From NCBI GenBank assembly GCA_028706475.1, contig JAQWBI010000019.1:1-38391 (forward strand): a DNA stretch of 38,391 nt. The letters are read 5' to 3'. This document shows positions 5,319 through 38,005 of the stretch, in pieces. The stretch comes from Candidatus Cloacimonadota bacterium (lineage in GTDB: Bacteria > Cloacimonadota > Cloacimonadia > Cloacimonadales > Cloacimonadaceae). Below the pieces are notes generated by a model, which saw nothing but the letters and a program-made list of their open reading frames with translations, was not told the origin of the DNA and did not search any database. The translations under genes and the position numbers were made by a program. Each line of letters starts with the position of its first letter. The first letter of the stretch is position 1.

Positions 5319-6086
5319 TTGAACATAGTAATACTCATCTTATTAGCTGTCATAGGCGCTGCTTTGGGCAGCTTTTTTAATGTGATTATCTACCGCTTGC
5401 CCAGAAAACAGTCCATAGTATATCCACCGTCACACTGTGGAGAATGCAACAAACCAATACCCTTCTATTTGAACATCCCGATAGCAAGCTATATAATACT
5501 GCGCGGAAAGTGCAAGTATTGTGGCGCTTCCATCCATTGGCACCACTTTTTGGTAGAGCTTTTAACACCCATTATCCTCATGTTGCTGTTCGTTCAATAC
5601 GGCTACGATGGGCAGTATATGCTCTTTTTCAAGTATTCAGTGTTGTGCCTGTTTCTGATCCCGATATTCTTCATAGATGCTTTCCATCAGATCATCCCCC
5701 ACAAGCTTTCTATACCGCTAATTCCCTTGGGACTGATCTTTGCGCTGATCCCGGGTAACGACATCACGATCCTGGAATCAGGCATTACTGCTGCCATCAT
5801 ATTCTGCTTTCTGGTTTTTATCGCCTATGCTTATCGGTTTGCAAGGAAGGCAGATGGTCTGGGAGGCGGAGACATTTGGCTTCTGACCGGTATATCTACC
5901 TTCATGGGGCTGATCAGTATGCCATACTTGATCCTGGTATCGGCTGTGTTGGGAATCGTCTATTTCTTTATATTTGTGCGAAACAAGGAACAAGGCTTTG
6001 CCTTCGGGACATTCATAGCAGTTACCACTATCTTGTTGTCACTCTTGGGATCTTCCCAGATGCTGGCGAACTTGCCATTTTTCTAG
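5319..6086 (+). CDS. pilD: Type IV prepilin leader peptidase (A24 family)
   Basis: This 255-aa inner-membrane aspartic protease should cleave, and possibly N-methylate, type IV prepilins and pseudopilins. Residues 1-90 form the family's N-terminal domain, with two zinc-binding pairs (Cys40/Cys43 in CGECNKPI and Cys65/Cys68 in CKYCGASIHW). The two catalytic aspartates are Asp120 in FFIDAFHQIIP and Asp185 in the GLGGGD motif. Several hydrophobic segments span the membrane. The start is a TTG at 5319 with AAGGAG at 5303-5308, and it gives the expected short N-terminus before the first helix. The gene is separated from the pilus operon by more than 15 kb but is the only visible processing enzyme for the pilin-like proteins there. 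No methyltransferase activity can be judged from sequence. Confidence 0.93.
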   Translation: MNIVILILLAVIGAALGSFFNVIIYRLPRKQSIVYPPSHCGECNKPIPFYLNIPIASYIILRGKCKYCGASIHWHHFLVELLTPIILMLLFVQYGYDGQYMLFFKYSVLCLFLIPIFFIDAFHQIIPHKLSIPLIPLGLIFALIPGNDITILESGITAAIIFCFLVFIAYAYRFARKADGLGGGDIWLLTGISTFMGLISMPYLILVSAVLGIVYFFIFVRNKEQGFAFGTFIAVTTILLSLLGSSQMLANLPFF

Positions 6087-24729: not shown

Positions 24730-25881
24730 CTACGGTTGCACTTCCGCATCCATTGCTCTGCTTTCCAGTAAACGGTCCAAGGCAGAATCAACAATCTCAG
24801 CTTTAATAGTGATGATAAGTTCGCGTTCTTTACGTTCCACCGAATTGTAACCAGTAAGGTAGCGAATTCCAAGGAACCACCAAGGTAAATCCTTCAGTAT
24901 CGGTATTCCACTGCGTGTGACAACCTCATCCGTGTCAAAGAGCCCGGCAATCACTGTTTCTTCATTATCATACATGATCAGTTCCGTGGAAGAAGTGCTT
25001 TTGGTGATAACTGTGGAAATCTCAGAGGGCTGCCCGCTGGAACGCTCTATAGAGAGTTTCATCATGATCAGGTCTTCACCATTCACATCTACAACTAAAG
25101 GACTTACGTCCATGATAATACCTGTAGAGAAGAAAGAATCTAAAGTGTTACCCGCTTCATCGGCTGTTTTTATTGAGATGTCCTGACCAACCTGGATACG
25201 CCCAGTTTTTCCGCTGCTCACCAGGATACTGGGTTCAGCAAGGATACTACCCTTCTGGTTCGACTCGATGGTACGGATTAGAGTGTTTATATCCACACTA
25301 TAGTCGCCCACATCTGCAGTACCGGAACCACTCAAAGTAAGGGGAGAACTCAGCTGCGAAGCACCTGCAAATCCTGCTTTCACGGTTACTTTTCCGTTAA
25401 ATACGCTTGACCAGTCGATACCCAGATTTTTCAGATAGCTTCTGTCGGCAAGCATGGCCACTGCTTTGATCCTCACCTGTTTGGTGAGAGCATCTTCCAC
25501 CAATTGTTTGGTTTCGGGATCCAGTTCTTCCAGCGCATTTGCAGCTGCTATCACAGATTCTTTGGTGTCTCTAAAAGCCAAATAACCTACCCCTTCTTCC
25601 AAAACCAATTTATTCTGTAATGCGATCAATTCGAGCGCTTGTCGCCATTGCATATTTTGTATGGGGACATTGATGTTGCCGTTGTAGCTAGATAGGTTAA
25701 TCAGTTTTTTCCCTTCTTCCTCTTCACTAAAGTTCTCCAGGATTCGCACAGCATTGTTGATATGCGTCATTTCGGACATACTTACTTTTTCCTGTATATA
25801 CTGTGCTGTGTTTTGGGCAAAGAGCCATCCACCGAAAATCAGAGTCAGGCAGCTTGTAGCAATCATTATTTTGTTCATCAT
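24730..25881 (-). CDS. Short secretin (PilQ/GspD family)
   Basis: This 383-aa outer-membrane channel protein begins with a signal peptide (about residues 1-22). A short N-terminal region contains one STN-like stretch (INVPIQNMQWRQALELIALQ). The secretin core begins with VRIKAVAMLADRSYLKNLGIDWS and contains IRTIESNQKGSILAEPSILV, TGIIMDVSPLVV and the C-terminal signature GIPILKDLPWWF followed by RELIITIKAEIVDS. It is far shorter than PilQ or GspD (600-750 aa) because most periplasmic N domains and any AMIN domain are absent. It should form the exit pore for the pilus encoded around it. Two adjacent ATG codons (25881 and 25878) are possible starts; the second has better spacing to GAGG. Confidence 0.88.
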   Translation of the reverse strand: MMNKIMIATSCLTLIFGGWLFAQNTAQYIQEKVSMSEMTHINNAVRILENFSEEEEGKKLINLSSYNGNINVPIQNMQWRQALELIALQNKLVLEEGVGYLAFRDTKESVIAAANALEELDPETKQLVEDALTKQVRIKAVAMLADRSYLKNLGIDWSSVFNGKVTVKAGFAGASQLSSPLTLSGSGTADVGDYSVDINTLIRTIESNQKGSILAEPSILVSSGKTGRIQVGQDISIKTADEAGNTLDSFFSTGIIMDVSPLVVDVNGEDLIMMKLSIERSSGQPSEISTVITKSTSSTELIMYDNEETVIAGLFDTDEVVTRSGIPILKDLPWWFLGIRYLTGYNSVERKERELIITIKAEIVDSALDRLLESRAMDAEVQP

Positions 25882-25885
25882 GGCC

Positions 25886-26737
25886 TCAGTTTTCGTTGTT
25901 CATGTATAGTGTCTGGTTTTCTTCGAAACCGTATTTATTTATTTTAAACACAGCCATTTGCTCGCGGCTGTCGATCTTGTACAAACGCCCCCAAAGAACC
26001 TTGTCTCCCTCTTTCAAAATACGAATGATGCCTCGGTTGTCCCTCAGGAAAGCTCGTTTGTCGCTGATCGCAATGAGTGTGTTGTTGTCCAAATTCACCA
26101 ACCGGGGATCTTCATCATAATCTTGAATCTCTTCTGTGTATCGGGCTCTGAAAAGGTCAAAGGCTTGCACCGGTTTACTTACACTTTTGTAGCTGATCTC
26201 CTCAGGAGAGAGCCCACCTTCCTTGAAGTGAGTGCGAAACATCATGGAAAAATTCACTGTGTCCGAACGAGCTGACTCACTGGAGATTGAGATATCTTCC
26301 ACTGTCAGAACCGGCCTTTGATACTCCAACTGCCGCGTGAATCTCACCAGATCCATGTAGTGGCTTTGTCCCGAGATCACATATTCATTATAATTGCCTT
26401 CGGATTTTGCGGACATGCCAAAATCGTACTCTATGTCTCGACCCAACAATTTGAGCAGTTTCAACAAGTAGTCGTAGGTTATTATTGAGCTGTCTCTATT
26501 GAATAGTATTTTGGCGTGTGATCCTGCCATGGCTTGGTATTTTGCATGCTCGCTTTCCAGATTATCCCTGTTTGAAACAAGCTTGCTAAAATTCGCAGCC
26601 TCTTGGGAAATTGCATCGTTTGCGGCTTTCTTTTGATTCAAATCCTGCTTGGCGCTTCTAAGTATAAAAAAGCCGATCATTCCGCTCATAATTAAGAGGC
26701 TACTCAGGACGAGGGTGTTCCTTGATGTATTTGTCAT
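25886..26737 (-). CDS. PilO-like inner-membrane protein with PilP-like C-terminal domain
   Basis: This 283-aa protein has the order expected of PilO: a single N-terminal membrane helix (residues 9-27), a periplasmic coiled coil (about 28-70) and an alpha/beta domain (YLLKLLKLLGRDIEYDFG... YVISGQSHYMDLVRFTRQLEYQRPVL). The last 70 residues (NNTLIAISDKRAFLRDNRGIIRILKEGDKVLWGRLYKID) resemble the small beta domain of the PilP/GspC group that contacts the secretin. I therefore read it as a PilO-PilP fusion. This is an inference from order and fold pattern, since these families share little sequence. It overlaps the PilMN gene by 4 bp and precedes the secretin gene by 4 bp, exactly where pilO and pilP sit in pilMNOPQ operons. 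Confidence 0.65.
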   Translation of the reverse strand: MTNTSRNTLVLSSLLIMSGMIGFFILRSAKQDLNQKKAANDAISQEAANFSKLVSNRDNLESEHAKYQAMAGSHAKILFNRDSSIITYDYLLKLLKLLGRDIEYDFGMSAKSEGNYNEYVISGQSHYMDLVRFTRQLEYQRPVLTVEDISISSESARSDTVNFSMMFRTHFKEGGLSPEEISYKSVSKPVQAFDLFRARYTEEIQDYDEDPRLVNLDNNTLIAISDKRAFLRDNRGIIRILKEGDKVLWGRLYKIDSREQMAVFKINKYGFEENQTLYMNNEN

Positions 26738-28890
26738 CTGGCATTCCCCGCTTCGATGTTATACATATCTATCACTGCTTGTTTACCTGCTAATGTAGAA
26801 GAATACTGGCTAGATAGCTCCTCATACTTTTGTCTGAAACTGCTTTCAGCAAGGGCAAAACTAATCCTGGCGTCCAGTAACTTGCTATAAGGTAGATAGT
26901 AGTCTGTCTTTACCAGATTTGGGCGCAGAGAATTGCGGGCAGCCACCATCTCCCGATCCAGATACAGGCGATATGCCACCCACCAGCGGATCAAAGAAGC
27001 CAGTTGACTATGGGGATACTTCTGCAAGAACACATGAGCTGACAAACGGTATTCCAGCATATTGCCTTTACCGATGGATTCCACAAAGCGCATATACATT
27101 GCCTTCATCTCTTCATCCCCCGCCAATTCATCGCCGATGGGTCCGGGAGTGTATTCATGTTCAATATTGGGTAAGATTCCATAGCGATACACTTTAACCT
27201 TGTTTTTGCCGTTAGTGCTTGTGCTGCGGCTGGAAACAGGCTTGTACCTAACAACCGTGCCCGTGTTTGAAGTAGTAGTGACCTCACTTTCTTGATCAGT
27301 AAATTCGGAACTTATAATATCGTCCCAGTCCACTTCAGGTAGAGTAAACTCAATCTCGAAATTCCACACGGAATGATTCCTGATCTGGGATCTGGCAACA
27401 CTGTTGATTTTCCCGTTGGGCAAACCTCCGGCAAGGCGGCTCACATTCTCTCGCTGGGATGTAGTACCGGAGATACTCATCTTCTCTCCGTTTTGCTTCA
27501 GATTGTTTATCCAGCTGTCCCGATGAGAGCTGAAAGTGCTGTTTATAACATGAAACAGCTCTGTCCATCTGTTCTTACCCTTCAGCAATTCAGAAACTGC
27601 TTGGGTAGTCTTGCGATATTCTTCTATCTCAGCAGCTAGGTTCTCCAACACGGCATTCTCTGCTCTCAGCTTATTCAAGGCAAAAGTGAGGTTTTGCCCT
27701 TTTGAGGTCTCCTCTCTATCCGCCTGCTTAATGCGCATGAAATTAATAGTAGTAAACAACCCCAGGGCAAAGATCATGCTAAGTACTATAAAACCGTGCC
27801 ACACCACCCGCAGTTCTTTTTGGTTGTCCGTGATCTTGTTGGGAAGGAAAGTACAGCGGCTGAAATCAGGATCATCAGTGTTGAGTGCCTTATATGCTAA
27901 TGCAAGAGCAAGGCTGTAGGGTTCCAATACTTGTTCGCTGTATTCAATGTCCTCAGCTGTAGGAATCACCAGATTGGGAAAATGCAGCAAAGTGGTCTTT
28001 GTGGAAGTACTTTGGGAATTCATGTACTCCACTAATTGTGCACTAGCCAGGTCTCCTGCTAATACGATGGTCTCCGGTTCTCTGATCTGAGCGCTGTCCA
28101 GAGCTAGAGATAGCTTTGAATAGATGATCTCCGGATCAGGATATTCCTGAGTGATGTGTACTGATTGGGTTTGAATCCATTTCCCGTCTTGAAATATGAA
28201 AAGCTTGCGGTAATCGGCGCCCAAATATACAAAGAGATTAATGCCTTCAGGACTGTCACCCAGAGAATGGCGATAGTATTCAGTAAGCACCACATCGTTA
28301 GCATCGGCAAGTTGAAAATAAAGTATGGTGCTGCTTTCCTGCCCATAACTGATTATGGCATCCAACAATAGATTTGGTCCGGAATAGAGCCAATGCTGAG
28401 GACCTTCCTCCGCTTCCACCACACATGAATGCCACGCACCTGCCTTACGCTGCTCCGGGCTAAGGCTTTCTTTTTTGAAGCGTCGCAGATCGGCCCTTTT
28501 TACTTTACCCGGAACATCTTTGAGGATGTGCTGATCGTGGATATTTAGCGCTATTACGCCTTCATTTAAAGGAAACCGGGAAAGCAGCAGAGTGCTGGGG
28601 CTTACTTCCATACGTCCCAGTTGGGGAAGATCAGCCATCTCGGTTGATTCCTTCTCATCCAGTTCGTTCACCTCATAGTTTTCGGTTTCCATAAAGTTGA
28701 CATCCAAGGGAATGAATTCAGCATCCGCACTGCCGGCTTTTGCCTGTTCCCCTTTATACCAATCACTATCCAGTTCTGTACTATCCATCTTGATAAGATA
28801 GATTTTGTCGCCTTCTTTACGTAAATGGACTATCCTTAGGATTGTACCATCCTGAAAAATACCGAAGGCTTCTTTGGGTAGTTTTTTCAT
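26734..28890 (-). CDS. PilM-PilN fusion-like protein with C-terminal helical repeat tail
   Basis: This 718-aa protein appears to join several alignment-complex parts. Residues 1-350 look like a degenerate actin-like PilM (IALNIHDQHILKDVPGKVK; ETIVLAGDLASAQLVEYM; LEPYSLALALAYKAL). One membrane helix at about 364-385 and a coiled coil at 390-435 match PilN, followed by a ferredoxin-like periplasmic domain (440-520: WTELFHVINSTF... WINNLKQNGEKMSISG). After a Ser/Thr-rich linker, residues 590-718 are helical with FLQKYPHSQLASLIRWWVAY, like a TPR or YfiO repeat that could bind peptidoglycan-side or secretin partners. The PilM part lacks clear phosphate loops, so nucleotide binding is doubtful. Fold assignment is by order and pattern; the gene sits where pilM and pilN belong. 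Confidence 0.68.
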   Translation of the reverse strand: MKKLPKEAFGIFQDGTILRIVHLRKEGDKIYLIKMDSTELDSDWYKGEQAKAGSADAEFIPLDVNFMETENYEVNELDEKESTEMADLPQLGRMEVSPSTLLLSRFPLNEGVIALNIHDQHILKDVPGKVKRADLRRFKKESLSPEQRKAGAWHSCVVEAEEGPQHWLYSGPNLLLDAIISYGQESSTILYFQLADANDVVLTEYYRHSLGDSPEGINLFVYLGADYRKLFIFQDGKWIQTQSVHITQEYPDPEIIYSKLSLALDSAQIREPETIVLAGDLASAQLVEYMNSQSTSTKTTLLHFPNLVIPTAEDIEYSEQVLEPYSLALALAYKALNTDDPDFSRCTFLPNKITDNQKELRVVWHGFIVLSMIFALGLFTTINFMRIKQADREETSKGQNLTFALNKLRAENAVLENLAAEIEEYRKTTQAVSELLKGKNRWTELFHVINSTFSSHRDSWINNLKQNGEKMSISGTTSQRENVSRLAGGLPNGKINSVARSQIRNHSVWNFEIEFTLPEVDWDDIISSEFTDQESEVTTTSNTGTVVRYKPVSSRSTSTNGKNKVKVYRYGILPNIEHEYTPGPIGDELAGDEEMKAMYMRFVESIGKGNMLEYRLSAHVFLQKYPHSQLASLIRWWVAYRLYLDREMVAARNSLRPNLVKTDYYLPYSKLLDARISFALAESSFRQKYEELSSQYSSTLAGKQAVIDMYNIEAGNAR

Positions 28891-28904: not shown

Positions 28905-30116
28905 TTATATTACAGACATCAGTTGATGCATCCGTTTCTTGTTATTTGCATAGTTCAGAGCTGTCTGCTGGCTTATATGACCTTTTTGATACAAAGTCTT
29001 CAAATCCTGTTCCAAAGTACACATCCCCAGTTTCTTACCTTCCACCATCATCTGATAGATCTCGCCGATATTCTTGTTTCGGATGGCAGCTTGCACACTG
29101 GAATCCACCGATAGAATTTCCTTGGCCAAAGTAAGCTTTCCGTCCGTAGTAGGCACCAGTTTCTGGCTCATACACACGGTTAACACATCCGCCAGACGGT
29201 TTCTTACTCTTTCTTGGGAATCTGTGGGAAACTCTGCCACAATGCGGTGGACACTATCTATGGCAGAGCTGGTGTGTAGAGTAGTAAAGGCTTTGTGGCC
29301 GCTATCGGTTATTTCCAAAACCGTGGCTATGGTTTGAGGATCGCGCATCTCCCCCACTACGATGATATCCGGATCCTGACGCAGAGCTTCCACGGCTCCG
29401 TGTTCAAAACTAAGCACATCCACCCCGACCTCACGATGGCGCACCAAACAGTTTTTGGAATGGTGCACATACTCGATGGGGGAATCGATGGAAACGATGT
29501 GCCCGTTATTCTGCCGGTTATTCATATCGATGATGGCGTTTAAGGTGGTAGATTTTCCGCTGCCGGTGATGCCGGTAATCAGCACAAGGCCAGTTTTTTC
29601 ATAGCGCAGGTTCATACGGTTTGCCACTACTTCCGGGATGCCCAATTGTTCCATGACCAAAAGATTGTCGTTGATCCTGCGGAAGTTTGCACCCAGAGCG
29701 TTACGGTCAAAGAAAGCGGTTCCGCGAAATCTCACTTCGTTGCCCCCGATATCGAAGGCCAAGGGGAAATCCAAGCTCTTTTGCATAAAGAGTCGGGACC
29801 GTTGCGCCGGAGACAGCCAACTGATGATAAGTGTATTGGTATCGATGAGGGAAAACTCGCCCAAGTCCTCCACAGGTTTTTTATTACCAAATACCCGCAT
29901 CCAGATCTTATTTGAACAACCAGGAGCTCCCAAATCCACATCGGAGGCTTCCATTTCCCGCGCTTTACGCAAGATGTACTTTAGCAAATCCCGGCATTCA
30001 TTCTCCCGTTCTGAGTGATGCAACAGCCATTGACTGATGATCTCGCATACTTCCACTCCCTGATAATTTGAAGGGATGTCCTTGCTAAGCGCTTCGGTAA
30101 AACTGAGTCTCATCAT
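28905..30116 (-). CDS. pilT: Twitching ATPase PilT-like (pilus retraction)
   Basis: This 403-aa hexameric ATPase of the secretion NTPase family should power pilus retraction. Walker A is GITGSGKSTTLNAI. The Asp box includes IVSIDSPIEYVHHSKNCLVRHREVG, Walker B is DPDIIVVGEMRDPQT and the His box GHKAFTTLHTSSAIDSVHR, all as in PilT. The C-terminal AIRNKNIGEIYQMMVEGKKLGMCTLEQDL is PilT-like. The N-terminus (about residues 1-70) is longer than usual for PilT and contains the PAS-like lead-in EASDVDLGAPG. The gene overlaps the upstream response regulator by 4 bp, which couples the two translationally. PilU is an alternative; no second retraction ATPase is seen. Confidence 0.92.
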   Translation of the reverse strand: MMRLSFTEALSKDIPSNYQGVEVCEIISQWLLHHSERENECRDLLKYILRKAREMEASDVDLGAPGCSNKIWMRVFGNKKPVEDLGEFSLIDTNTLIISWLSPAQRSRLFMQKSLDFPLAFDIGGNEVRFRGTAFFDRNALGANFRRINDNLLVMEQLGIPEVVANRMNLRYEKTGLVLITGITGSGKSTTLNAIIDMNNRQNNGHIVSIDSPIEYVHHSKNCLVRHREVGVDVLSFEHGAVEALRQDPDIIVVGEMRDPQTIATVLEITDSGHKAFTTLHTSSAIDSVHRIVAEFPTDSQERVRNRLADVLTVCMSQKLVPTTDGKLTLAKEILSVDSSVQAAIRNKNIGEIYQMMVEGKKLGMCTLEQDLKTLYQKGHISQQTALNYANNKKRMHQLMSVI

Positions 30117-30994
30117 CGTGCAAATACATCCTCGTCGATCGGGGTATTGCGTCCGATCAAAGATAGTCTTACAATGCTACGCTTCCATTTTACTTGCATA
30201 CACTGGATCAGGTTGATGGTATAGCGATCGGTGAGGGCTTTGTCGTTATATGTAAAATAGTCTATCAGTTTCCTTCGGGGGAAATAACGTACCACTACGT
30301 CGCCATGCGCCCTCAAGGTAGTGAATACAGCCTGAGGATTGATGAAGGTTTCTTCACCCCACACATCCCCTTCCTTCAGGGAATCCACCAGATCCGTATT
30401 GTAATACACGTTTACAAAGCCGCTTTCTATCACGACCATGCAGCCTTCTTCCTTGTCCATAGGAATGGGCATACCGCTCTTATACTCTTTTAGGGTACCA
30501 ATACTCTTAAAATTATATACTTGCTCAGTATTAAAGCCCCTCAAAAGAAGAAGTTCTGGTTTTTTATCCGGCTCTTCTGTACTCTCTTGTTTTTCTTCAG
30601 ACAGCGTCACTTCCGCCACAGATGTCCGGGTTTGAGCTAATCCGGCATCTACTGCCCGAATCAGTTCATCCGGTTGTATTGGCTTTGGCAGATACATGAA
30701 AGCCGATTGGCGGATACTACGAAAATCCACATCCAATCCGGAATAACCGGTAGTTACGATTATCACCGCATTGGGCTGGATCTCTTTTAAGCGGGAGATC
30801 AATTCCAAACCTCCCATCCTGGGCATATATATATCTACTATATAGAGGTCGAATTTTTCTATAGCTACTTTTTCCAAGGCATCCAAACCATCGATTGCGG
30901 TAGCTACGCTATACCCCATTTCCTGCAAAAAGGTTTGGAATATATCCCTGATGTTTTGCTCATCATCTACTACTAATAATCTTTTAGTACTCAT
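30113..30994 (-). CDS. Response regulator with cyclic-nucleotide-binding-like output domain
   Basis: This 293-aa protein has an N-terminal receiver (LLVVDDEQNIRD, phosphoacceptor Asp in LYIVDIYMPRMGG, Thr in IVTTGYS, Lys in YLPKPI). A Glu/Lys-rich linker leads to a cNMP-binding-like beta barrel at about 165-265 (MVVIESGFVNVYY, LKEGDVWGEETFI, TTLRAHGDVVVRYFPRRKLIDYF). The binding cassette keeps the Gly-Glu of FGE (WGEE) but lacks the arginine normally found in the following RSA/RTA position (VFT here), so cyclic-nucleotide binding is uncertain. There is no DNA-binding domain. It overlaps pilT by 4 bp and follows the DHp-only protein by 2 bp, suggesting direct control of pilus motor activity. 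Confidence 0.85.
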   Translation of the reverse strand: MSTKRLLVVDDEQNIRDIFQTFLQEMGYSVATAIDGLDALEKVAIEKFDLYIVDIYMPRMGGLELISRLKEIQPNAVIIVTTGYSGLDVDFRSIRQSAFMYLPKPIQPDELIRAVDAGLAQTRTSVAEVTLSEEKQESTEEPDKKPELLLLRGFNTEQVYNFKSIGTLKEYKSGMPIPMDKEEGCMVVIESGFVNVYYNTDLVDSLKEGDVWGEETFINPQAVFTTLRAHGDVVVRYFPRRKLIDYFTYNDKALTDRYTINLIQCMQVKWKRSIVRLSLIGRNTPIDEDVFAR

Positions 30995-30996
30995 AA

Positions 30997-31470
30997 TTAT
31001 TGCCCTATTTCTGTGGTTGAATTAATCCCTTTATTTTTTATCAAAGGATGGGTTTTCAATATTCTTACAGCTTGCATTATCTCTCCGATGCGATTTACTG
31101 CGTCTGAGATGTCTTTCACATTGTTCAAAAGAGTATCATCTCCGGTCTGTTGACCCAACTTCTTGGCTCTGCCCAAAGACATGGTAATCACGCATAACGG
31201 AGTATTTACATCATGATCCAGTTTTGCGATTTTCTGCAATTCCGGGATCAGTGCGTTCAATTCATCCAGTTTCTTTTGCATCCCCTTGCATGTACTCAGT
31301 TCCACGAGAAGCTTATGTTTGTCTCTCTTAATTTGTTGCACTTGTTGCCGATAACGTAATGCACACACACCCAGGATGATGACCAATAGCGAAAGAGCTA
31401 TATATAAGGCTGATCCCGCCGTACTCAGCAGCAGAATCGGGTTCATTGTTGCGAAAGCTAACATGTCCAT
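30997..31470 (-). CDS. Membrane-anchored histidine kinase dimerisation (DHp) domain without ATPase domain
   Basis: This 157-aa protein has a long hydrophobic N-terminal region (about residues 8-40) likely to span the inner membrane. It is followed by a coiled coil and an H-box, KLDHDVNTPLCVITMSLGR, with the candidate phosphorylated His86. The helix after it (DISDAVNRIGEIMQAVRIL) completes a HisKA-like two-helix hairpin. The protein then stops; there are no N, G1 or G2 boxes of the ATP-binding domain. The frame is intact and has a good ribosome binding site (GAGG), so it does not look like a recent truncation. It could serve as a phosphotransfer relay for the hybrid kinase or as a dimerising scaffold for the adjacent response regulator. 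Confidence 0.72.
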   Translation of the reverse strand: MDMLAFATMNPILLLSTAGSALYIALSLLVIILGVCALRYRQQVQQIKRDKHKLLVELSTCKGMQKKLDELNALIPELQKIAKLDHDVNTPLCVITMSLGRAKKLGQQTGDDTLLNNVKDISDAVNRIGEIMQAVRILKTHPLIKNKGINSTTEIGQ

Positions 31471-31580: not shown

Positions 31581-32954
31581 CTAATCCCGAATATACTGAA
31601 CCAGGGTGGACTTCATTACCCCTTGATGCCATAAGAGCATTTCTGTAGGTGTAAAAGCACGGTCATCCATTCCAGCCTGATCCATAATGCCAAAGAAGTG
31701 GCGATTTTTCACGTTCTCGGAAACAGTATATGGAGTCCTGCCCAAGATCATTCCATACTTGCTTTTGTGCGCCCGTACTGCTCCATCTTTAATTCTCTGT
31801 CCCACCTTTACTCCATTGATATAAGCAGTTAAAATACTCTGTTCGTTTTTGGTTTCATAGGTAAGACCGTATGAACCCCAGGGGTATTGCGGATGATTTG
31901 GATTAATAACATAGGCCAGAGTTACAATAAACGACACTTTCTTCCATACTTCCGCTGTACGAGTATAGTTTATCGATACCATCAGAGAATCATTGTCCTC
32001 TCGGGTTACGACAAAATGCATTTTTCCGGTTGGGCTTGAAGTGCTTGTTGTTTCGAAGTAGATAGCAGCGGAGGGCTTGGACTGCATTGATGCGTCTGTA
32101 GCGTCACTGGGTATCCATAATAAGGTTCCCTGTTGTTTACGTTTGTCGCCTGAAGATTCCACAGATGTCGCCCTTCCTGATTTATCAATCTTGGCAAAAC
32201 ACATCAGAGAAAACTCTGTATCGGTGTCTAGCGGTTCATCGTCTTCACTATCGACAGGGAGTTTGTTCTCCACTTCTATCCAGTTGTTGTAGCCGTTAAA
32301 CTTCAAGTAACGCTTGCTGTATGCTCCGCCCCATGTTTCCAGGTCTTCGTCCATTTCATCTACACTATAGTATGGTGCAGTCGGGGAAATAAATGAAAAC
32401 CCATGAAACTGACCCCCGTATTCATTGGGCGAAGAATCAGGAAGAAGGCGGTTACTAAGGCCGAACAGATCATACAGCCAGGGAAACAGCAGTAAGCGTT
32501 CAAACTCCAGATAGACCACGTTTGGGGCCACTTTACCCAGAGTAACCATGGGGAAGCTGAATGCCATTTCGGCATCACGAAACACTTCAATTCCTTGCAT
32601 GGATCCTCGGATGTGGGTCTTCACCTTATAATGATCTTCGGTATGTGCGTAGCTGTATTCCAGGCTCAAGATATCACAGTTACCGATCTTTCTTTCGCCA
32701 GGGGCAAAGCTTTGGACGTGAGTGATTTCACCAACAACAGCTGCTCCACTGAGAATGGAATCCAGGAAATCCTTGGAATTGGCGTTGCGTACCGCAGCTC
32801 TGAGCACGAAGTCGCTGATATTCTCAACTTCTTTGTTTAGCTGATTTCTGATAAGTACATCCGGTACTCCGCCAATGCTATTCTGCACTCTTACCAATAT
32901 AGAAGCAAAAATTGTGGTCATCAATATCACGAACATCAATGAAGCGCGTCCCAT
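31581..32954 (-). CDS. Pilin-like protein with C-terminal LamG/concanavalin-like domain
   Basis: This 457-aa protein opens with Met-Gly and then a hydrophobic stretch (RASLMFVILMTTIFASILV), like the N-terminal helix of PilX-type minor pilins but without a normal leader or Glu5. After a pilin-like N-terminal region there is a large C-terminal beta domain (about 195-455). Its strands include YLKFNGYNNWIEV, FSLMCFAKID, ILTAYINGVKVGQ, YGMILGRTP and FGIMDQAGMDDRAFTPTEM; the last is the usual closing pattern of LamG/concanavalin-like domains. These domains bind carbohydrate or protein ligands, so this could be a tip adhesin. AAGGAG seven bases upstream fixes the Met-Gly start. It lies within the pilus operon. 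Confidence 0.72.
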   Translation of the reverse strand: MGRASLMFVILMTTIFASILVRVQNSIGGVPDVLIRNQLNKEVENISDFVLRAAVRNANSKDFLDSILSGAAVVGEITHVQSFAPGERKIGNCDILSLEYSYAHTEDHYKVKTHIRGSMQGIEVFRDAEMAFSFPMVTLGKVAPNVVYLEFERLLLFPWLYDLFGLSNRLLPDSSPNEYGGQFHGFSFISPTAPYYSVDEMDEDLETWGGAYSKRYLKFNGYNNWIEVENKLPVDSEDDEPLDTDTEFSLMCFAKIDKSGRATSVESSGDKRKQQGTLLWIPSDATDASMQSKPSAAIYFETTSTSSPTGKMHFVVTREDNDSLMVSINYTRTAEVWKKVSFIVTLAYVINPNHPQYPWGSYGLTYETKNEQSILTAYINGVKVGQRIKDGAVRAHKSKYGMILGRTPYTVSENVKNRHFFGIMDQAGMDDRAFTPTEMLLWHQGVMKSTLVQYIRD

Positions 32955-32965
32955 ATCTCAGCTCC

Positions 32966-33544
32966 TTACCATCCGCCTTCTTGCAGATAGGCATTCATAA
33001 AAAAACACTTTAGCTGTAGATTTGACCGAAGTGGTTGAGCTGGCCGCCATGGGGAATCACGGCGAAAGGTCAGCAGAATCTCCGCAGACATTATATCCCG
33101 TAAAGTAGTGGTGGCAACTCCATTAATATTATAATAATTCAAAGTCATGTTTTCTATGAACAGAATGTGACCCAAGGGCATGATTACGCTGCCATCTTGC
33201 CGTATTTCCAGCACTTTTCCGGATTCATAACCATAATCTACAACTTTCATCTCTATCAAGTGTCGATCATCCGACAGTGAATCTCCATCACAGTCCCAAT
33301 AAGTACGGAACTTAATACTGGATGAATTGGCTGAAACGCATATAGAATCCGCAGGAATCCCCACTCCTGCCATTGCAAATATGTGGTTCACATTGCGTGC
33401 GGCGGCATCCATGTGATCAATCATAGAACTGGTATAATAGATACGTCCTGCAGTCTCCTGCAATTGCAGCTGAAAGGTCATTATCATCAACAATAATGTT
33501 GCTCCGATGATCACGCTTCCCAGTACATCCAGCAATACGCCCAT
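32966..33544 (-). CDS. Pilin-like minor subunit with Met-Gly N-terminus
   Basis: This 192-aa protein begins MGVLLDVLGSVIIGATLL, a long hydrophobic helix starting immediately after Met-Gly, followed by about 165 residues of mixed beta structure. The pattern matches type IV pilin or pseudopilin architecture (single N-terminal helix plus globular head), but there is no classical leader ending in Gly-Phe and no Thr-Leu-Ile-Glu. If Met is removed, an Asp occupies position 5, where pilins carry Glu5. Two cysteines in the head (ICVSANS and YWDCDGD) could form a disulphide. AGGTGA precedes the ATG. It is placed between the two other pilin-like genes; no exact family is recognised. Confidence 0.6.
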   Translation of the reverse strand: MGVLLDVLGSVIIGATLLLMIMTFQLQLQETAGRIYYTSSMIDHMDAAARNVNHIFAMAGVGIPADSICVSANSSSIKFRTYWDCDGDSLSDDRHLIEMKVVDYGYESGKVLEIRQDGSVIMPLGHILFIENMTLNYYNINGVATTTLRDIMSAEILLTFRRDSPWRPAQPLRSNLQLKCFFMNAYLQEGGW

Positions 33545-33548
33545 TTAT

Positions 33549-33974
33549 TCACCTGATAAATGTTTCGGTATATATTCTATGCATTACATAGGGTCTTTGC
33601 AGATATCTGTGACCGCTGACCGTTATGGTCATCTTTTTATACAGGCTCAGAGAGTCATCTACTGTAAGTACATTACCCAATTCATCGCAATTTACGGTTG
33701 CGGCTTCTACATTGAAAGTAATGGGTAAATGAGGGTAAGTCTGGCTATGAGTATAGTTGTACTCGGTAAGGAGATCATTCAAATCCAGTTGTTTGGAAAA
33801 GAGCTTGGCATCAGCTTCGTCGAGGATGGAATGGCATATCTGTGAGGCCTGTACTACCAGAGTAGCATTGTTCAGATAATCCGTCTGAGCCCATATCGCC
33901 TGGTTATAGGTAAGTGATAAGGTAGTGAACAGCACTACTGCAAATAAGGCCAGTACCATTTCCATCATATTCAC
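33549..33974 (-). CDS. Small pilin-like protein
   Basis: This 141-aa protein has an N-terminal hydrophobic helix (MNMMEMVLALFAVVLFTTLSL) and a short globular part with two cysteines (CHSILDEADAK and VNCDELGN). A Glu at residue 5 lines up with Glu5 of mature pilins if the start methionine is residue 1, so the protein would need little or no leader cleavage. The start is GTG at 33974, eight bases after GAGGA, which lies inside the end of pilB; an ATG at 33968 is the alternative. The gene is separated by 4 bp on both sides from pilB and the next pilin-like gene. No specific family is recognised. Confidence 0.58.
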   Translation of the reverse strand: MNMMEMVLALFAVVLFTTLSLTYNQAIWAQTDYLNNATLVVQASQICHSILDEADAKLFSKQLDLNDLLTEYNYTHSQTYPHLPITFNVEAATVNCDELGNVLTVDDSLSLYKKMTITVSGHRYLQRPYVMHRIYTETFIR

Positions 33975-33978
33975 GGGC

Positions 33979-35766
33979 CTAATCCTCTGATGTTACAAAT
34001 AGCACTTCAGTTAAATCGGTGAGGCCTTCCCGCATACGCTCCACTCCACTGTCGCGCATGGAAAGCATACCATGTTTTTCCGCGATCTTGCGGATGCGAT
34101 CTTCATCGATATCATTTACGGATTTCACAATTTCCTGCCTTATCTCAGGGTAGAAATACAGAGCTTCAGCCACGTTTATCCGGCCTTTGTAGCCATTATG
34201 ACACTTGCGACAGCCCACTGGCTCATATATTTTACCGGATTCCAGTTCTTCCAGGGTAAGACCCAGTTGCAAGGCAGCATCCCAATGCTCTTTGGAAAGC
34301 GGTCTGCGGCAATGTACACAGAGCTTGCGCACCAGCCGCTGAGCGATGATGATATTGATCGAATATGCCAGCAGGAAAGTCTCGATACCCATTTTGTACA
34401 TCCGGGAAATAGCGGAAGGGGCGTCGTTGGTATGCAGAGTACTGAAGGTAAGGTGACCGGTATTGGCGAGCTTTACCGCCGTTTCTGCCGTGATTTTGTC
34501 ACGAATCTCGCCTACCATCACGATGTCGGGGTCATGACGCAGGATGGAGCGTATGGCTTGTTCAAAGGTCATTTTATGCCCGATCTTGAGCTGCCGTGCA
34601 CCTTTAATCACATACTCCACCGGGTCTTCGCAAGTAAGCACATTCACTCCGGGGTGAATCACATGATGCAGAGCTGCCATCAATGTGGTCGATTTTCCGC
34701 TACCGGTAGGACCGGTTACTATCACAATGCCTTTCGAGGTATTTATGGACTTCAAAAATTCTTTTTCTGCTTGTTCCTGAAAGCCCAGTTTACGGAAGTC
34801 TGTGATCACTTTACGGTCGTCGATCACGCGGATCACCACGCTTTCAAAACGGCGTTCATATTCCTGAGAGACAATCGGAAGGATGGAGATACGATAGCGG
34901 ATCAGGTGGTCATCTACCATTCTTTGGGCAAATCCGTCCTGTGCTGTATCACGTTCAAAACGGTCAACTCCGGTTGATCTGTCCTTCACCACTGCTGTCA
35001 AAGCTTCTGGAGCCGTATTCTCTTGCCGCATCCACAATTGTAATTTTCCATCAATGCGGAAGAATATATCCACCGAGCTTTTCCCGAAGGGAATGATGTG
35101 AATATCACTGGCGTCCCGGTGCACAGCTTCGATGAGGCAACCTTCAAAGAGGTTTACCAGCAGGCTTTTATTGATCTCCTCATCCAGCGCTTGTTCATCC
35201 AACACCTCTTTCTCCGGGGTGACCATATCACTCACCACCTGCCCCGCTTCTTCCAGGAGTTGTAAAAATTCGTTCTTTTGTGGAGCTACCCTGGCGATAA
35301 TATCTTCCACTGTCTTTTGCGGAGCCCAAAAGATCTCCAACCTGCGGAATTGAGTACGGCTGGTGATCTCCTGGATCACTTTGTTGGTAGGATCTGTGGT
35401 AAGTACTCGCAGGATGTCGCGATTGGTCTTGTGTACTCCAAAGGGTATTATTTTGTGATAGATCAGTTTACGCTTAAAGTCTTCGTCACTGCCCCGGCGC
35501 ATACTGTCCAAGGCCTGCTTGCAGGCTTCCAACTGCATTTCCGGAATCTCCTCGATACTTTTTTTGAACACCGGAAAAGCATAGTGAATGGACAGGGCTT
35601 CATACACCGTGTCGTGAGCTGCACCAAATTCGATCTCCAATACCCTTGCCAGTGCACTGGCGGAGGTGCCGCCATACTGCTCCATCTTTGCTTCAGCTTT
35701 CTTCATGGTCTCTTCATCGAAGTATCCGTTGCGAACCAAGTATTGTGCGAATTTATTACCTTGCAT
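33979..35766 (-). CDS. pilB: Assembly ATPase PilB/GspE
   Basis: This 595-aa hexameric ATPase energises pilus assembly or type II-like secretion. The N-terminal part (about 1-190) is an MshEN/GspE_N-like domain. The core carries Walker A GPTGSGKSTTLMAAL, Asp box LTCEDPVEYVI, Walker B DPDIVMVGEIRDKITAETA and His box GHLTFSTLHTNDAPSAISR. The C-terminal zinc module has the tetracysteine pattern CVHC and CRKC. Length and domains match PilB and GspE equally well; pilus context (PilT, PilM/N-like proteins) favours PilB. A good ribosome binding site (AAAGGTGAT) precedes ATG 35766, and the gene follows pilC by 16 bp. Confidence 0.93.
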   Translation of the reverse strand: MQGNKFAQYLVRNGYFDEETMKKAEAKMEQYGGTSASALARVLEIEFGAAHDTVYEALSIHYAFPVFKKSIEEIPEMQLEACKQALDSMRRGSDEDFKRKLIYHKIIPFGVHKTNRDILRVLTTDPTNKVIQEITSRTQFRRLEIFWAPQKTVEDIIARVAPQKNEFLQLLEEAGQVVSDMVTPEKEVLDEQALDEEINKSLLVNLFEGCLIEAVHRDASDIHIIPFGKSSVDIFFRIDGKLQLWMRQENTAPEALTAVVKDRSTGVDRFERDTAQDGFAQRMVDDHLIRYRISILPIVSQEYERRFESVVIRVIDDRKVITDFRKLGFQEQAEKEFLKSINTSKGIVIVTGPTGSGKSTTLMAALHHVIHPGVNVLTCEDPVEYVIKGARQLKIGHKMTFEQAIRSILRHDPDIVMVGEIRDKITAETAVKLANTGHLTFSTLHTNDAPSAISRMYKMGIETFLLAYSINIIIAQRLVRKLCVHCRRPLSKEHWDAALQLGLTLEELESGKIYEPVGCRKCHNGYKGRINVAEALYFYPEIRQEIVKSVNDIDEDRIRKIAEKHGMLSMRDSGVERMREGLTDLTEVLFVTSED

Positions 35767-35782
35767 AGCTTATCACCTTTGC

Positions 35783-37120
35783 TTAGAAAGTAGGCGGTGA
35801 AATTGTAGCGATCTCAGCTGAAACCACAGTGAGGAAAGTAATGGCAATTGCTATCACCAAGCCCACTAAAGTTTGGATGTATTCTATCAGATTATTCATT
35901 TTATAAGTTGTCTCCGCTTCGTAGAAAGTAGCAATCTGTTGAGCAGATTGACGCAGAGTACCGGTCTCCTGACCAGTGCGCAAGCGAGTGAGAGTCGTTT
36001 TGGTAAATACCTCAGCAGCGGTCATCGCCTCTACAAAACCCAAACCATCTTTTAGCATCAAGGGTATAGTGATCTTCTTCACTCTATCCTCCATCCAGGC
36101 ATTACGACAGGCCTCTGCACTGGTCTTGATGGTCTCGATGTTGTCTCCCGCACCCCCATAGATGGTACCAAACACACGGAAATAGATTTCGATGGAAGAT
36201 TTGTGAATCAAGTGCCCCACCAGAGGTAGCTTTACAATGCGTTTATCCCGCCAAATCTTACCTTTTGGAGTACTCCACCAACGCCAAATTATCACCGCGG
36301 GGATCAATATGGCCATCAGGAGTAACCACCAGTATACGCCCAGCCAATCACTGATTTCCAATGTTTTCTTGGTAAGAGTCGGTAATGGCATATCGTATTT
36401 TAGAAACATCTGCGCTGTAGAGGGAAATATGTCCACAATATAATAGACCGTAGCACCGATTGTTGCGGCAAGGGCGAAAAAGGGAGAGATAATGGCACTC
36501 TTTACGTTCTTCTTGATCTCCATATCACGCTCGATAAATTTCGCCGTGGCGTCGAATACCTCTGCCATATTACCGCTTCGGGTAGCCAAACCCAGCATGT
36601 AGGATGGAAATTTGCCAAAGATATGCTGATAGCGACTGAAGACTTCACGTCCTTCCGCTCCGGATTTCAATTGACTCTCTATCTGCTGCAAAGCTTCGCG
36701 GAATCCGCGATTGGGCTGCTCTTCCGCCAGCATTTCCAAGATCTTTCCAAAGCTCATTTTGTCCCGCAACATAGTGGCGGAGAGCTTTATAAACATCATG
36801 ATGTCTGGCATGGAGGGTTTGGAGGGAATATCGAAGAGAACAGGAGATATCTTGAATTTGCTGTAGCCCATCTTGGTGAGAGCACTTGCTACTTCTTCTT
36901 TGGAATATGCTGATTGCCTGCCGTTAAACTTCTTTTTCCCAGGCAGGCTTACGTTGTACAGCCAATCCCGCTTTTTGTCGAAAGCCTGAATCTTCAGATT
37001 GTAGCGTAAGGACACTTTTGCCAATTGCTCTTTGGCTGCCTTGCCGCTATCTGCCGTAAAGGTGCCCTGTACCAGCTTACCTTCAGGATTCAATCCCTTA
37101 AATCGGTATTCTTTCGTCAT
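35783..37120 (-). CDS. pilC: Inner-membrane platform protein PilC/GspF
   Basis: This 445-aa protein is the platform of the type IV pilus or type II secretion machine and recruits the assembly and retraction ATPases. The first 100 residues are a cytoplasmic lead-in (EYRFKGLNPEGKLVQGTFTA). Two GspF domains follow, with MFIKLSATMLRDKMSFGKILEMLAEEQPN, the helix pair around SAIISPFFALAATIGATVYYIVDIF, the second repeat around IEIYFRVFGTIYGGAGDNIETIKTSAEA, and the final hydrophobic helix VGLVIAIAITFLTVV. It is first in the long pilus operon, and GGAG precedes its ATG at 37120. Confidence 0.93.
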   Translation of the reverse strand: MTKEYRFKGLNPEGKLVQGTFTADSGKAAKEQLAKVSLRYNLKIQAFDKKRDWLYNVSLPGKKKFNGRQSAYSKEEVASALTKMGYSKFKISPVLFDIPSKPSMPDIMMFIKLSATMLRDKMSFGKILEMLAEEQPNRGFREALQQIESQLKSGAEGREVFSRYQHIFGKFPSYMLGLATRSGNMAEVFDATAKFIERDMEIKKNVKSAIISPFFALAATIGATVYYIVDIFPSTAQMFLKYDMPLPTLTKKTLEISDWLGVYWWLLLMAILIPAVIIWRWWSTPKGKIWRDKRIVKLPLVGHLIHKSSIEIYFRVFGTIYGGAGDNIETIKTSAEACRNAWMEDRVKKITIPLMLKDGLGFVEAMTAAEVFTKTTLTRLRTGQETGTLRQSAQQIATFYEAETTYKMNNLIEYIQTLVGLVIAIAITFLTVVSAEIATISPPTF

Positions 37121-37136
37121 TCAATCTCCACTTTCG

Positions 37137-37164
37137 ATTATATACCCTATATTACCAAAAGCAA
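37137..37164 (-). promoter_or_regulatory. Putative promoter of the pilus operon (pilC)
   Basis: Read leftward, TTGCTT (37159-37164) and a perfect TATAAT (37137-37142) are 16 bases apart. The ATG of pilC lies about 15 bases beyond the -10 element, giving a very short leader with GGAG in it. Confidence 0.55.
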
Positions 37165-37457
37165 AATAGCCTAAATCGGTCAAGCTTTTTTTTGGGCTTT
37201 TTGCTGTAATTTTCCAGTAGATACAACTGATTGAATCCGTTATACTCTGTAATATATATAGATAGCCGTGCTGTATTGATTTTTCCATTTTGATAATCAG
37301 CAGCAGAATTAGCTTATTTTCAATCAGATAGCTCCACGTCCTTTCATTCTCGATCTCAGTGGTACTTTATCAGAAAATACAGAGAAATCAAAGCAAGATC
37401 ATACACTGCACAAGTTATTGCAGCTTAGTCTTTAAGCTACTATCTACAAAATTGTAC

Positions 37458-37487
37458 TTGACACAAAAATACAGCTACAGATACTTT
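37458..37487 (+). promoter_or_regulatory. Putative promoter of the pilin-like gene
   Basis: A consensus TTGACA (37458-37463) is followed after 17-18 bases by a weak -10 (ATACTT at 37481-37486 or TACTTT at 37482-37487). GAGGA at 37506-37510 and the ATG at 37517 follow. The poor -10 with a perfect -35 might reflect regulation. Confidence 0.45.
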
Positions 37488-37516
37488 GTTATCATTGAAT
37501 AAAATGAGGATATATA

Positions 37517-38005
37517 ATGGGAACTCAACAAATTCTATTAATCGTGCTTAGCGTGATCATCGTGGGAGCAGCTATTGCTGTCGGAATCGATATGTTCAAT
37601 CGTCAAGACTTCAGCAGCAACCGCTCTGCCGCTGCCTCTGATGTACAAATCTTTCTTACGCAAGTCTTGCAATATTATAAAATGCCGGAATCCTTGGGCG
37701 GTTTGGGTGGAGACATCGATAACGCCGAAGATGCAGATGCCATCGCCTCTTACATCGGTTGGGGGGATGAAAACCCCATGTCCAACGACAATGCCACCTA
37801 TATGGTTGAGATACCGGAACATACCGATGATCTGGAAATTGTGGACATCAAAGCCATCGGTAGCGCAGAGCTGAATGGAAAGCATTCTGTGGTACACGGC
37901 CGCATCACCTTCCCCGCTGGCAAGATAGTATCCAGAGTAGATGAAATTGCAAAAACCGGAGATATCGTGGACACAGATTTCGTTTTTGACTTATGGACTG
38001 ATTAG
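37517..38005 (+). CDS. Candidate major pilin, Met-Gly type
   Basis: This 162-aa protein begins MGTQQILLIVLSVIIVGAAI, one long hydrophobic helix beginning right after Met-Gly, then a globular acidic domain (about residues 35-162: FLTQVLQYYKMPESLGGLGGDI, YMVEIPEHTDDLEIVDIKAIG). This is pilin-like, but there is no Lys/Arg leader, no Phe1 and no Glu5. GAGGA six bases upstream of ATG 37517 makes the Met-Gly start firm. The gene faces away from the pilus operon, has its own promoter, and is followed by an inverted repeat and a T8 run, so it may be produced separately at a high level, as expected of a main subunit. I do not recognise a named family; it could also be a membrane-tethered secreted protein unrelated to pili. 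Confidence 0.62.
   Translation: MGTQQILLIVLSVIIVGAAIAVGIDMFNRQDFSSNRSAAASDVQIFLTQVLQYYKMPESLGGLGGDIDNAEDADAIASYIGWGDENPMSNDNATYMVEIPEHTDDLEIVDIKAIGSAELNGKHSVVHGRITFPAGKIVSRVDEIAKTGDIVDTDFVFDLWTD

Follow-up and report, generated by a model that had tools for sequence, protein, structure and literature searches.

Candidate leaderless type IV pilins in a Cloacimonadota pilus locus and in related loci of other phyla

The window analysed here, a stretch of 38,391 nucleotides from a Cloacimonadota genome, contains a type IV pilus locus with pilin-like proteins that begin almost directly with their hydrophobic helix. We consider it very likely that this locus encodes a type IV filament with leaderless subunits, which would be translated in a mature or nearly mature form and would not be substrates of a prepilin peptidase. 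Both the class III signal peptide and the peptidase that cuts it are counted among the core traits of type IV filaments, and even as defining ones; pilin-finding models search for the motif of this signal peptide, and leader cleavage is taken to be universal for type IV pilus fibres. Leaderless type IV pilins look like a new and widespread variant. If true, they are a natural counter-example with which one could test directly what leader cleavage and N-methylation are for. No description of these N-terminal sequences or of prepilin-peptidase-free pilins was found in the searchable literature, which covers only a minority of subscription papers and preprints.

The pilus locus and the identity of its subunits

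The genes concerned are the following.

37517–38005, forward strand: major-pilin-like protein of 162 aa (MGTQQILLIVLSVIIVG), its gene divergent from the operon in the window
35783–37120, reverse strand: PilC/GspF-like inner membrane platform (Pfam T2SSF, 3.7e-28; NCBIfam GspF/PilC), kept in relatives
33979–35766, reverse strand: PilB extension ATPase (Pfam T2SSE, 7.6e-98; TIGR02538, 1e-118, below the equivalog cut-off)
33549–33974, reverse strand: ORF141, minor-pilin-like, GTG start, MNMMEMVLAL
32966–33544, reverse strand: ORF192, GspJ/PilW-like minor pilin by AF2 model and PDB fold matches, MGVLLDVLG
31581–32954, reverse strand: ORF457, modular minor-pilin-like protein, MGR plus hydrophobic helix, C-terminal ConA/LamG-like lectin module
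30997–31470, reverse strand: short histidine-kinase-like membrane protein (HisKA, E 0.0055, sub-threshold)
30113–30994, reverse strand: response regulator (Response_reg, 1.7e-26) with a cyclic-nucleotide-binding-like domain (cNMP_binding, 4e-6)
28905–30116, reverse strand: PilT-like retraction ATPase (TIGR01420, 4e-96, above cut-off)
26734–28890, reverse strand: PilM-PilN fused alignment-complex protein, by position and conservation (PilN, 0.0026, and Amuc_1101 family, 9.5e-5, both sub-threshold)
25886–26737, reverse strand: PilO-like protein, by position and conservation in relatives
24730–25881, reverse strand: short PilQ/GspD-type secretin (TIGR02515, 3.6e-20, below the curated cut-off), kept in relatives
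5319–6086, forward strand: prepilin peptidase/methylase (Peptidase_A24, PF01478, 8.8e-18), TTG start

The locus thus combines the PilB/GspE ATPase and PilC/GspF platform that define the machinery of the type IV filament superfamily with the PilQ/GspD-type secretin gene expected in diderms and the PilT gene expected of type IVa systems. Its order, [MG-pilin]-PilC-PilB-ORF141-ORF192-ORF457-kinase-regulator-PilT-PilM/N-PilO-PilQ, is kept in related genomes, where the gene for the 162-aa protein is co-directional with the operon and present in 1–4 tandem copies adjoining PilC. The core of MG-pilin, PilC and PilB was also found in Neomarinimicrobiota, Calditrichota, Kryptonia and Ignavibacteria.

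Structure prediction, which the initial annotation had proposed as a check on all four subunits, covered two of them, and both models had a long hydrophobic helix at the N-terminus that leads into a beta-sheet domain. The AF2 model of the 162-aa protein (pLDDT 91) has the pilin architecture of one 53-residue helix and a four-stranded sheet. For the ORF192 model (pLDDT 86.5), the best PDB fold matches were the Thermus type IV pilin TTHA1219 (E 8.8e-4, probability 1.0) and EpsI:EpsJ (GspI/J). A profile search of the PDB with the 162-aa family placed type IV pilins (geopilin and PilE1 entries) in the top four positions, with weak E values of 0.007–0.043, and a single-sequence search returned nothing useful. 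Foldseek found no PDB match to the 162-aa model below E 0.001, and the Streptococcus sanguinis PilA minor pilin reached a TM of only 0.3–0.5. PDB profile searches with ORF141 and ORF192 yielded no pilin matches, and none of the four proteins matched a pilin model in Pfam or NCBIfam. Laminin_G_3 lies just below its curated cut-off in ORF457 (E 2.3e-5) and was detected in 22/31 of its homologues (best 1.6e-12), suggesting ORF457 as a candidate tip adhesin.

We considered the possibility that the four proteins are accessory membrane proteins and that the real pilin is encoded elsewhere. The silence of the pilin models and the weak Foldseek result for the major subunit would agree with this, yet two models have pilin architecture, pilins are the best PDB profile and fold matches, and tandem copies of the major gene adjoin PilC. 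Furthermore, within the class of Kryptonium, N_methyl proteins are absent from 56 of the 65 genomes with MG-pilins. We therefore regard this possibility as very improbable indeed.

Translation starts and conserved N-termini

The three Met-Gly starts with ribosome binding sites that had been proposed from the sequence were borne out. ORF457 begins with the ATG at 32954 (MGRASLMF), preceded by GGAG and by an in-frame stop one codon away; ORF192 begins with the ATG at 33544 (MGVLLDVLG), with AGGTGA upstream and the stop 0 codons away; and the 162-aa protein begins with the ATG at 37517 (MGTQQILLIVL), with GAGG upstream, three codons (GYI) after a stop. The fourth start, at 33974, also held: it is a GTG (MNMMEMVLAL), with GAGG upstream, six codons (HQRIRP) after a stop and without a start codon among these. 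In all four proteins, 1–5 residues precede the hydrophobic helix. Since in all four genes the upstream stop is 0–6 codons off with no alternative start codon in between, a longer leader cannot be encoded. A leader initiated at an upstream non-AUG codon was ruled out because the stops are near the start and the short upstream peptides are the translated Shine-Dalgarno stretch. Class III leaders of type IV pilins are hydrophilic, comprise 6–26 residues and have a Gly before the cut (review, PMC4471445); none of the four proteins has such a leader. As the initial annotation had stated, the window encodes no pilin with a canonical leader, no N_methyl (PF07963) protein being present there.

Upstream in-frame starts were also looked for in relatives, and none added a normal leader. 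A stop lies 0–2 codons upstream in 17/126 (162-aa), 33/63 (ORF141), 8/61 (ORF192) and 14/57 (ORF457) distinct homologues, a Shine-Dalgarno-like motif is located 5' of the start in 124/126 members of the 162-aa family, and sequence conservation starts exactly at residue 1.

Gly2 and Gln4 are each present in 125/126 distinct homologues of the 162-aa protein, and Gly2 in 56/57 of those of ORF457. As Gly2 occurs in only 4.4% of 1,116 other long ORFs from related loci, its presence is not due to chance. Residue 2 is mostly Asn (33/63) in ORF141 homologues and Ser, Gly or Asn in those of ORF192. Gly2 is not general across the four subunit families, so that the idea of a Met-Gly-plus-helix start conserved next to pilC/pilB stood for the 162-aa and ORF457 families and failed for the other two. 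The 162-aa family starts with MG[T/Q]QQ, with Gln4-Gln5 instead of Glu5; ORF141 homologues have Glu, Gln or Asp at residue 5 (52/63) and ORF192 homologues Asp or Glu at residue 6 (56/61). Gln4-Gln5, Glu/Gln5 and Asp/Glu6, respectively, appear to take the place of Glu5 in a cleaved pilin. ORF457 has no acidic residue at the equivalent place. Taken with the conserved gene order, the predicted pilin folds and the pilins heading the profile or fold matches, these conserved N-termini support the distinct pilin class suggested initially.

Prepilin peptidase and canonical pilins

The Peptidase_A24 gene, overlooked in the initial annotation, is 18.6 kb from the pilus locus and is the sole PF01478 match in the genome. 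Its translation looks intact, with CxxC pairs and a GGGD motif. The genome has three canonical N_methyl pilins, all on another contig (C8), one beginning MLRNLKNQKG/FTLIEV, and the peptidase probably serves these. As this genome has PilD, absence of the enzyme is no argument against cleavage there.

In the class of Kryptonium, MG-pilins were found in 65/119 genomes; PF01478 was missing from 58 of these 65 and present in 7. It was also missing from 13/24 MG-pilin genomes with named loci. The genomes lacking it include near-closed ones, and the MG[T/Q]QQ start is kept in them. N_methyl proteins were found in 9/11 named-locus genomes with PF01478 versus 0/13 without (p 4e-5), and in 7/7 versus 2/112 of the 119 Kryptonium-class genomes (p 6e-10). 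Canonical N_methyl pilins track Peptidase_A24, whereas MG-pilins do not. Two single-contig genomes (G181 and G186) have pilus operons with MGQQQ pilins and neither PF01478 nor N_methyl proteins. A genome of the same order (G043; 99% complete, PilC of the MG-pilin-locus type, no A24) was dropped as a natural knock-out because a 162-aa homologue was undetectable there.

Two mechanisms had been offered initially: a two-residue Met-Gly leader, cut after Gly2 by PilD, or no leader, with at most Met removal. The former is suggested by the nearly invariant Gly2 of two families, by the A24 peptidase in the window and by the Gly that invariably ends bacterial leaders before the cut (PMC4471445). Yet many MG-pilin genomes without A24 retain the start, Gly2 is usually absent from homologues of ORF141 and ORF192, and known leaders are 6–26 residues long (PMC4471445), making cleavage by PilD highly unlikely. 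Removal of Met only is favoured, both because many MG-pilin genomes lack A24 and because two of the four families have not conserved Gly2. Against this leaderless reading, the near-perfect Gly2 in the 162-aa and ORF457 families exceeds what Met removal needs. The strict Gly2, together with the many carriers without A24, in which another enzyme could have replaced it, might also point to maturation by a non-A24 peptidase, still unknown. This we regard as distinctly unlikely: compact operons such as L180 (PilQ-PilO-PilMN-PilT-PilB-PilC-pilin-pilin) contain no additional gene, and the 1–5 residues before the helix vary between subunit families at positions 2–5.

It is likely, in our view, that these proteins represent a class of type IV filaments that spans several phyla and is built from subunits that at no stage have a leader or encounter a prepilin peptidase, such that cleavage and PilD-dependent N-methylation would not be universal for assembly. 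The genome paper of Melioribacter roseus reported pilT, pilQ, pilB and pilC, with no pilA or pilD (PMC3534657); leaderless pilins likely explain these 'missing' genes.

Proposed assembly and comparison with known systems

That MG-pilins form filaments, at the surface and with the N-termini given below, is our inference. Translation begins 1–5 residues before the alpha-1 helix, which would act as an uncleaved signal anchor, with its N-terminus in and the globular domain in the periplasm. Methionine aminopeptidase would take off Met where residue 2 is Gly, Ser, Thr or Ala, leaving Gly-Thr/Gln-Gln-Gln at the start of the major subunit. By homology, PilB and PilC would extrude the subunits as a filament through PilQ, and PilT would retract it. 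ORF141, ORF192 and ORF457 may form a GspI/J/K-like tip complex exposing the lectin module of ORF457.

The system shares with type IVa pili PilB, PilC, PilT, PilQ, PilM/N/O-like proteins, subunits with a (here predicted) pilin fold and minor pilins beside the motor genes. It differs in that its subunits lack a class III signal peptide, its major subunit has Gln4-Gln5 rather than Glu5, PilM and PilN are fused, and many of its genomes have no prepilin peptidase. MSHA pilus loci also lack a prepilin peptidase gene of their own, but MSHA genomes always carry the peptidase of another system (Denise et al. 2019, PMC6668835), whereas many MG-pilin genomes are without any A24 peptidase. As in the GspI-GspJ-GspK tip complex of the T2SS, three distinct minor subunit genes stand in a row, the ORF192 model resembles EpsI:EpsJ and the largest subunit (ORF457) has no acidic residue; in contrast, Gsp pseudopilin leaders are cleaved, ORF457 has a lectin-like module instead of the GspK alpha domain, and PilT is present in the MG-pilin locus. 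Finally, S. sanguinis PilC, reported to be an ordinary type IV pilin of modular build with a ConA-like lectin module (PMC8179133), shares with ORF457 a hydrophobic N-terminal helix and a C-terminal lectin/LamG-like module, probably exposed at the tip, but ORF457 starts with MG[RK] right at the helix.

Start codons and gene order of the pilus locus

The initial annotation described four proteins that begin Met-Gly or MNMMEMV directly before a hydrophobic helix, and no canonical pilin, in a type IV pilus locus. Inspection of the reading frames confirmed both points.

37517-38005, plus strand: major-pilin-like protein of 162 aa (relatives are called MG-pilins); in-frame stop 3 codons upstream, no start codon in between
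33974 (start), minus strand: ORF141, minor-pilin-like; GTG start, in-frame stop 6 codons upstream, no start codon in between
33544 (start), minus strand: ORF192, minor-pilin-like; in-frame stop 0 codons upstream
32954 (start), minus strand: ORF457, minor-pilin-like; in-frame stop 1 codon upstream, no start codon in between

Due to these close upstream stops without an intervening start codon, none of the four genes can encode a class III leader. Their neighbours are the genes for PilC and PilB, for a short kinase-like protein and for a response regulator that carries a cNMP-binding-like domain, as well as those for PilT, a fused PilM-PilN, a PilO-like protein and a short secretin. The recurrent order in relatives is pilin-PilC-PilB-ORF141-ORF192-ORF457-kinase-regulator-PilT-PilMN-PilO-PilQ. 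The pilin gene is co-directional with PilC in relatives, but divergent from it (35783-37120) in the window, which probably reflects a local inversion or rearrangement.

Further pilin copies of this genome lie on contigs C84 and C14 (L075, L076). The kinase-like protein and the regulator (30113-31470) are located inside the pilus operon and kept in many relatives, which suggests regulated pilus dynamics. The apparently fused PilM and PilN (26734-28890, 718 aa) weakly matched the Akkermansia Amuc_1101 family (E 9.5e-5). At L062, L112, L118, L126 and L134, the ORF457-type gene is duplicated or triplicated in tandem.

Conservation of the N-termini and predicted folds

The 162-aa protein was present in 43 of 60 relatives, often in 2-6 copies, with a match nearly always starting at residue 1. 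A scan of GTDB contigs yielded at least 277 relatives, of which 80 were retained; among these are Neomarinimicrobiota, Calditrichota, Kryptonia, Ignavibacteria and MAGs labelled Bacteroidetes, Deltaproteobacteria and Armatimonadetes. PilC, usually together with PilB, was downstream of the pilin in 18 of the 22 neighbourhoods listed. Full-length PilC proteins formed two clearly separate identity groups (38-87% for this system versus 20-27% for canonical paralogues). Among 126 distinct homologues of the 162-aa protein, Gly2, Gln4 and Gln5 were each found in 125 and a Shine-Dalgarno-like motif in 124, with the upstream stop at a median of 6 codons; the background frequency of Gly2 was 4.4% (1,116 other long ORFs of the same loci). 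In the 162-aa family, Met-Gly plus helix is conserved beside PilC and PilB.

An MG[RK] start was shared by 56 of 57 ORF457 homologues. Residue 2 of the ORF141 homologues (n = 63) was Asn in 33, Gly in 17 and Thr in 8, and residue 5 was Glu, Gln or Asp in 52; of the 61 ORF192 homologues, 47 begin with Ser, Gly or Asn after the Met, and residue 6 is acidic (Asp or Glu) in 56. These counts put an acidic or amide residue at position 4-6 from the initiator Met in three families, where Glu5 is placed in processed type IV pilins. The family of the largest subunit, ORF457, lacks such a residue, an absence shared with GspK. Some ORF141 homologues outside the window's family (e.g. L096, L138, L151) have M-x-x-Gly4-Gln5 instead of M-N-x-x-Glu5; this Gly4 is right before the Glu5 equivalent, and the motif is also found in genomes without prepilin peptidase. 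At a guess, the strict Gly2 of the 162-aa and ORF457 families could serve filament-core packing or efficient Met removal.

For the 162-aa protein, AlphaFold2 (44 homologues; pLDDT 91, pTM 0.81) predicts one helix (residues 3-55) followed by four strands, a pilin architecture. A sequence profile of the family, run against 177,635 PDB sequences, gave weak top matches, but the best four were all pilins (geopilin, geopilin, PilE1 and geopilin; E 0.007, 0.016, 0.028 and 0.043). A Foldseek search with the AlphaFold2 model returned nothing significant, which counts against pilin identity. For ORF192, the model (pLDDT 86.5) comprises a helix (2-57) and a beta domain, and its best PDB fold matches were the Thermus type IV pilin TTHA1219 (E 8.8e-4, probability 1.0, TM 0.55) and the EpsI:EpsJ pseudopilins. 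The predicted folds, obtained for these two of the four proteins, are both pilin-like. A ConA/LamG-like module was detected in 22 of 31 ORF457 homologues; in this respect ORF457 resembles PilC of S. sanguinis, a modular pilin with a lectin module (PMC8179133). In 2 of the 31, the match was to Bactofilin rather than LamG.

Co-occurrence with the prepilin peptidase

The initial annotation had left open whether PilD cuts a two-residue Met-Gly leader or only Met is removed, and had not mentioned a prepilin peptidase gene in the window, 18.6 kb from the pilus locus. Contig C8 of the window's genome (2.06 Mb, 97% complete) encodes another, canonical system that comprises GFTLIEV pilins, PilT and a PilC paralogue of just 22% identity. 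A survey of the superfamily regards the peptidase as possibly shared between systems (PMC6668835). In the window's own order, the peptidase (Peptidase_A24, PF01478; A24) was found in 55 of 60 genomes, and the canonical system is nearly universal there too. G043 (L064, L197), a 99% complete genome of this order, has two PilC genes of the present type, without canonical PilC, A24 or a detectable 162-aa homologue.

Loci of the wide scan led to 24 genomes, all of them with the MG-pilin. A24 was found in 11 of these and not in the other 13, among which are all three Kryptonia, the Ignavibacteria, the three Bacteroidetes and both Neomarinimicrobiota genomes. Canonical pilins (N_methyl, PF07963) scored above cut-off in 9 of the 11 genomes with A24 versus 0 of the 13 without (Fisher p 4e-5). 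Among 119 genomes of the Kryptonium class (90% completeness requested), MG-pilins were present in 65, A24 in 7 and N_methyl in 9, including all 7 with A24 (p 6e-10); 58 of the 65 MG-pilin genomes lacked A24. Canonical pilins track the peptidase, whereas MG-pilins do not, and the MG-pilin N-terminus is identical in genomes with and without A24.

Genome incompleteness is an unlikely cause of the missing A24, since neither A24 nor N_methyl was found in two practically closed genomes, G181 (a contig of 3,742,376 bases in 3.7 Mb) and G186 (3,665,746 in 3.7 Mb). Both have pilin-PilC-PilB-PilT-PilMN-PilO operons with MGQQQ pilins, and G181 has PilQ as well; one of its MGQQQ pilin genes has a stop codon directly before the ATG.

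Processing and comparison with type IV pili

The independence of MG-pilins from A24 favours Met removal without a leader over a two-residue leader cut by PilD. Subunits would be inserted into the membrane without a charged leader, lose Met through methionine aminopeptidase, and assemble into a retractable filament; ORF141, ORF192 and ORF457 may occupy the tip, with ORF457 mediating adhesion through its lectin module. The conserved N-termini, gene order and predicted folds support the distinct pilin class originally proposed.

No description of leaderless pilins or of these conserved N-terminal sequences was found in the literature searched, which covered few subscription journals and preprints. 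Leaderless pilins would resolve the missing pilA and pilD of Melioribacter roseus, for which pilT, pilQ, pilB and pilC were reported and the pil set was considered probably incomplete (PMC3534657). A review takes a class III signal peptide, 6-26 residues long and with Gly at its end, as the defining feature of type IV pilins, counts the peptidase among the conserved components, and names Nanoarchaeota as the sole phylum in which prepilins occur while a peptidase is not detectable (PMC4471445). The present system would work in the same way as a type IV pilus, but its subunits lack the class III signal peptide, a defining feature of membership, which sets the locus apart from ordinary members.
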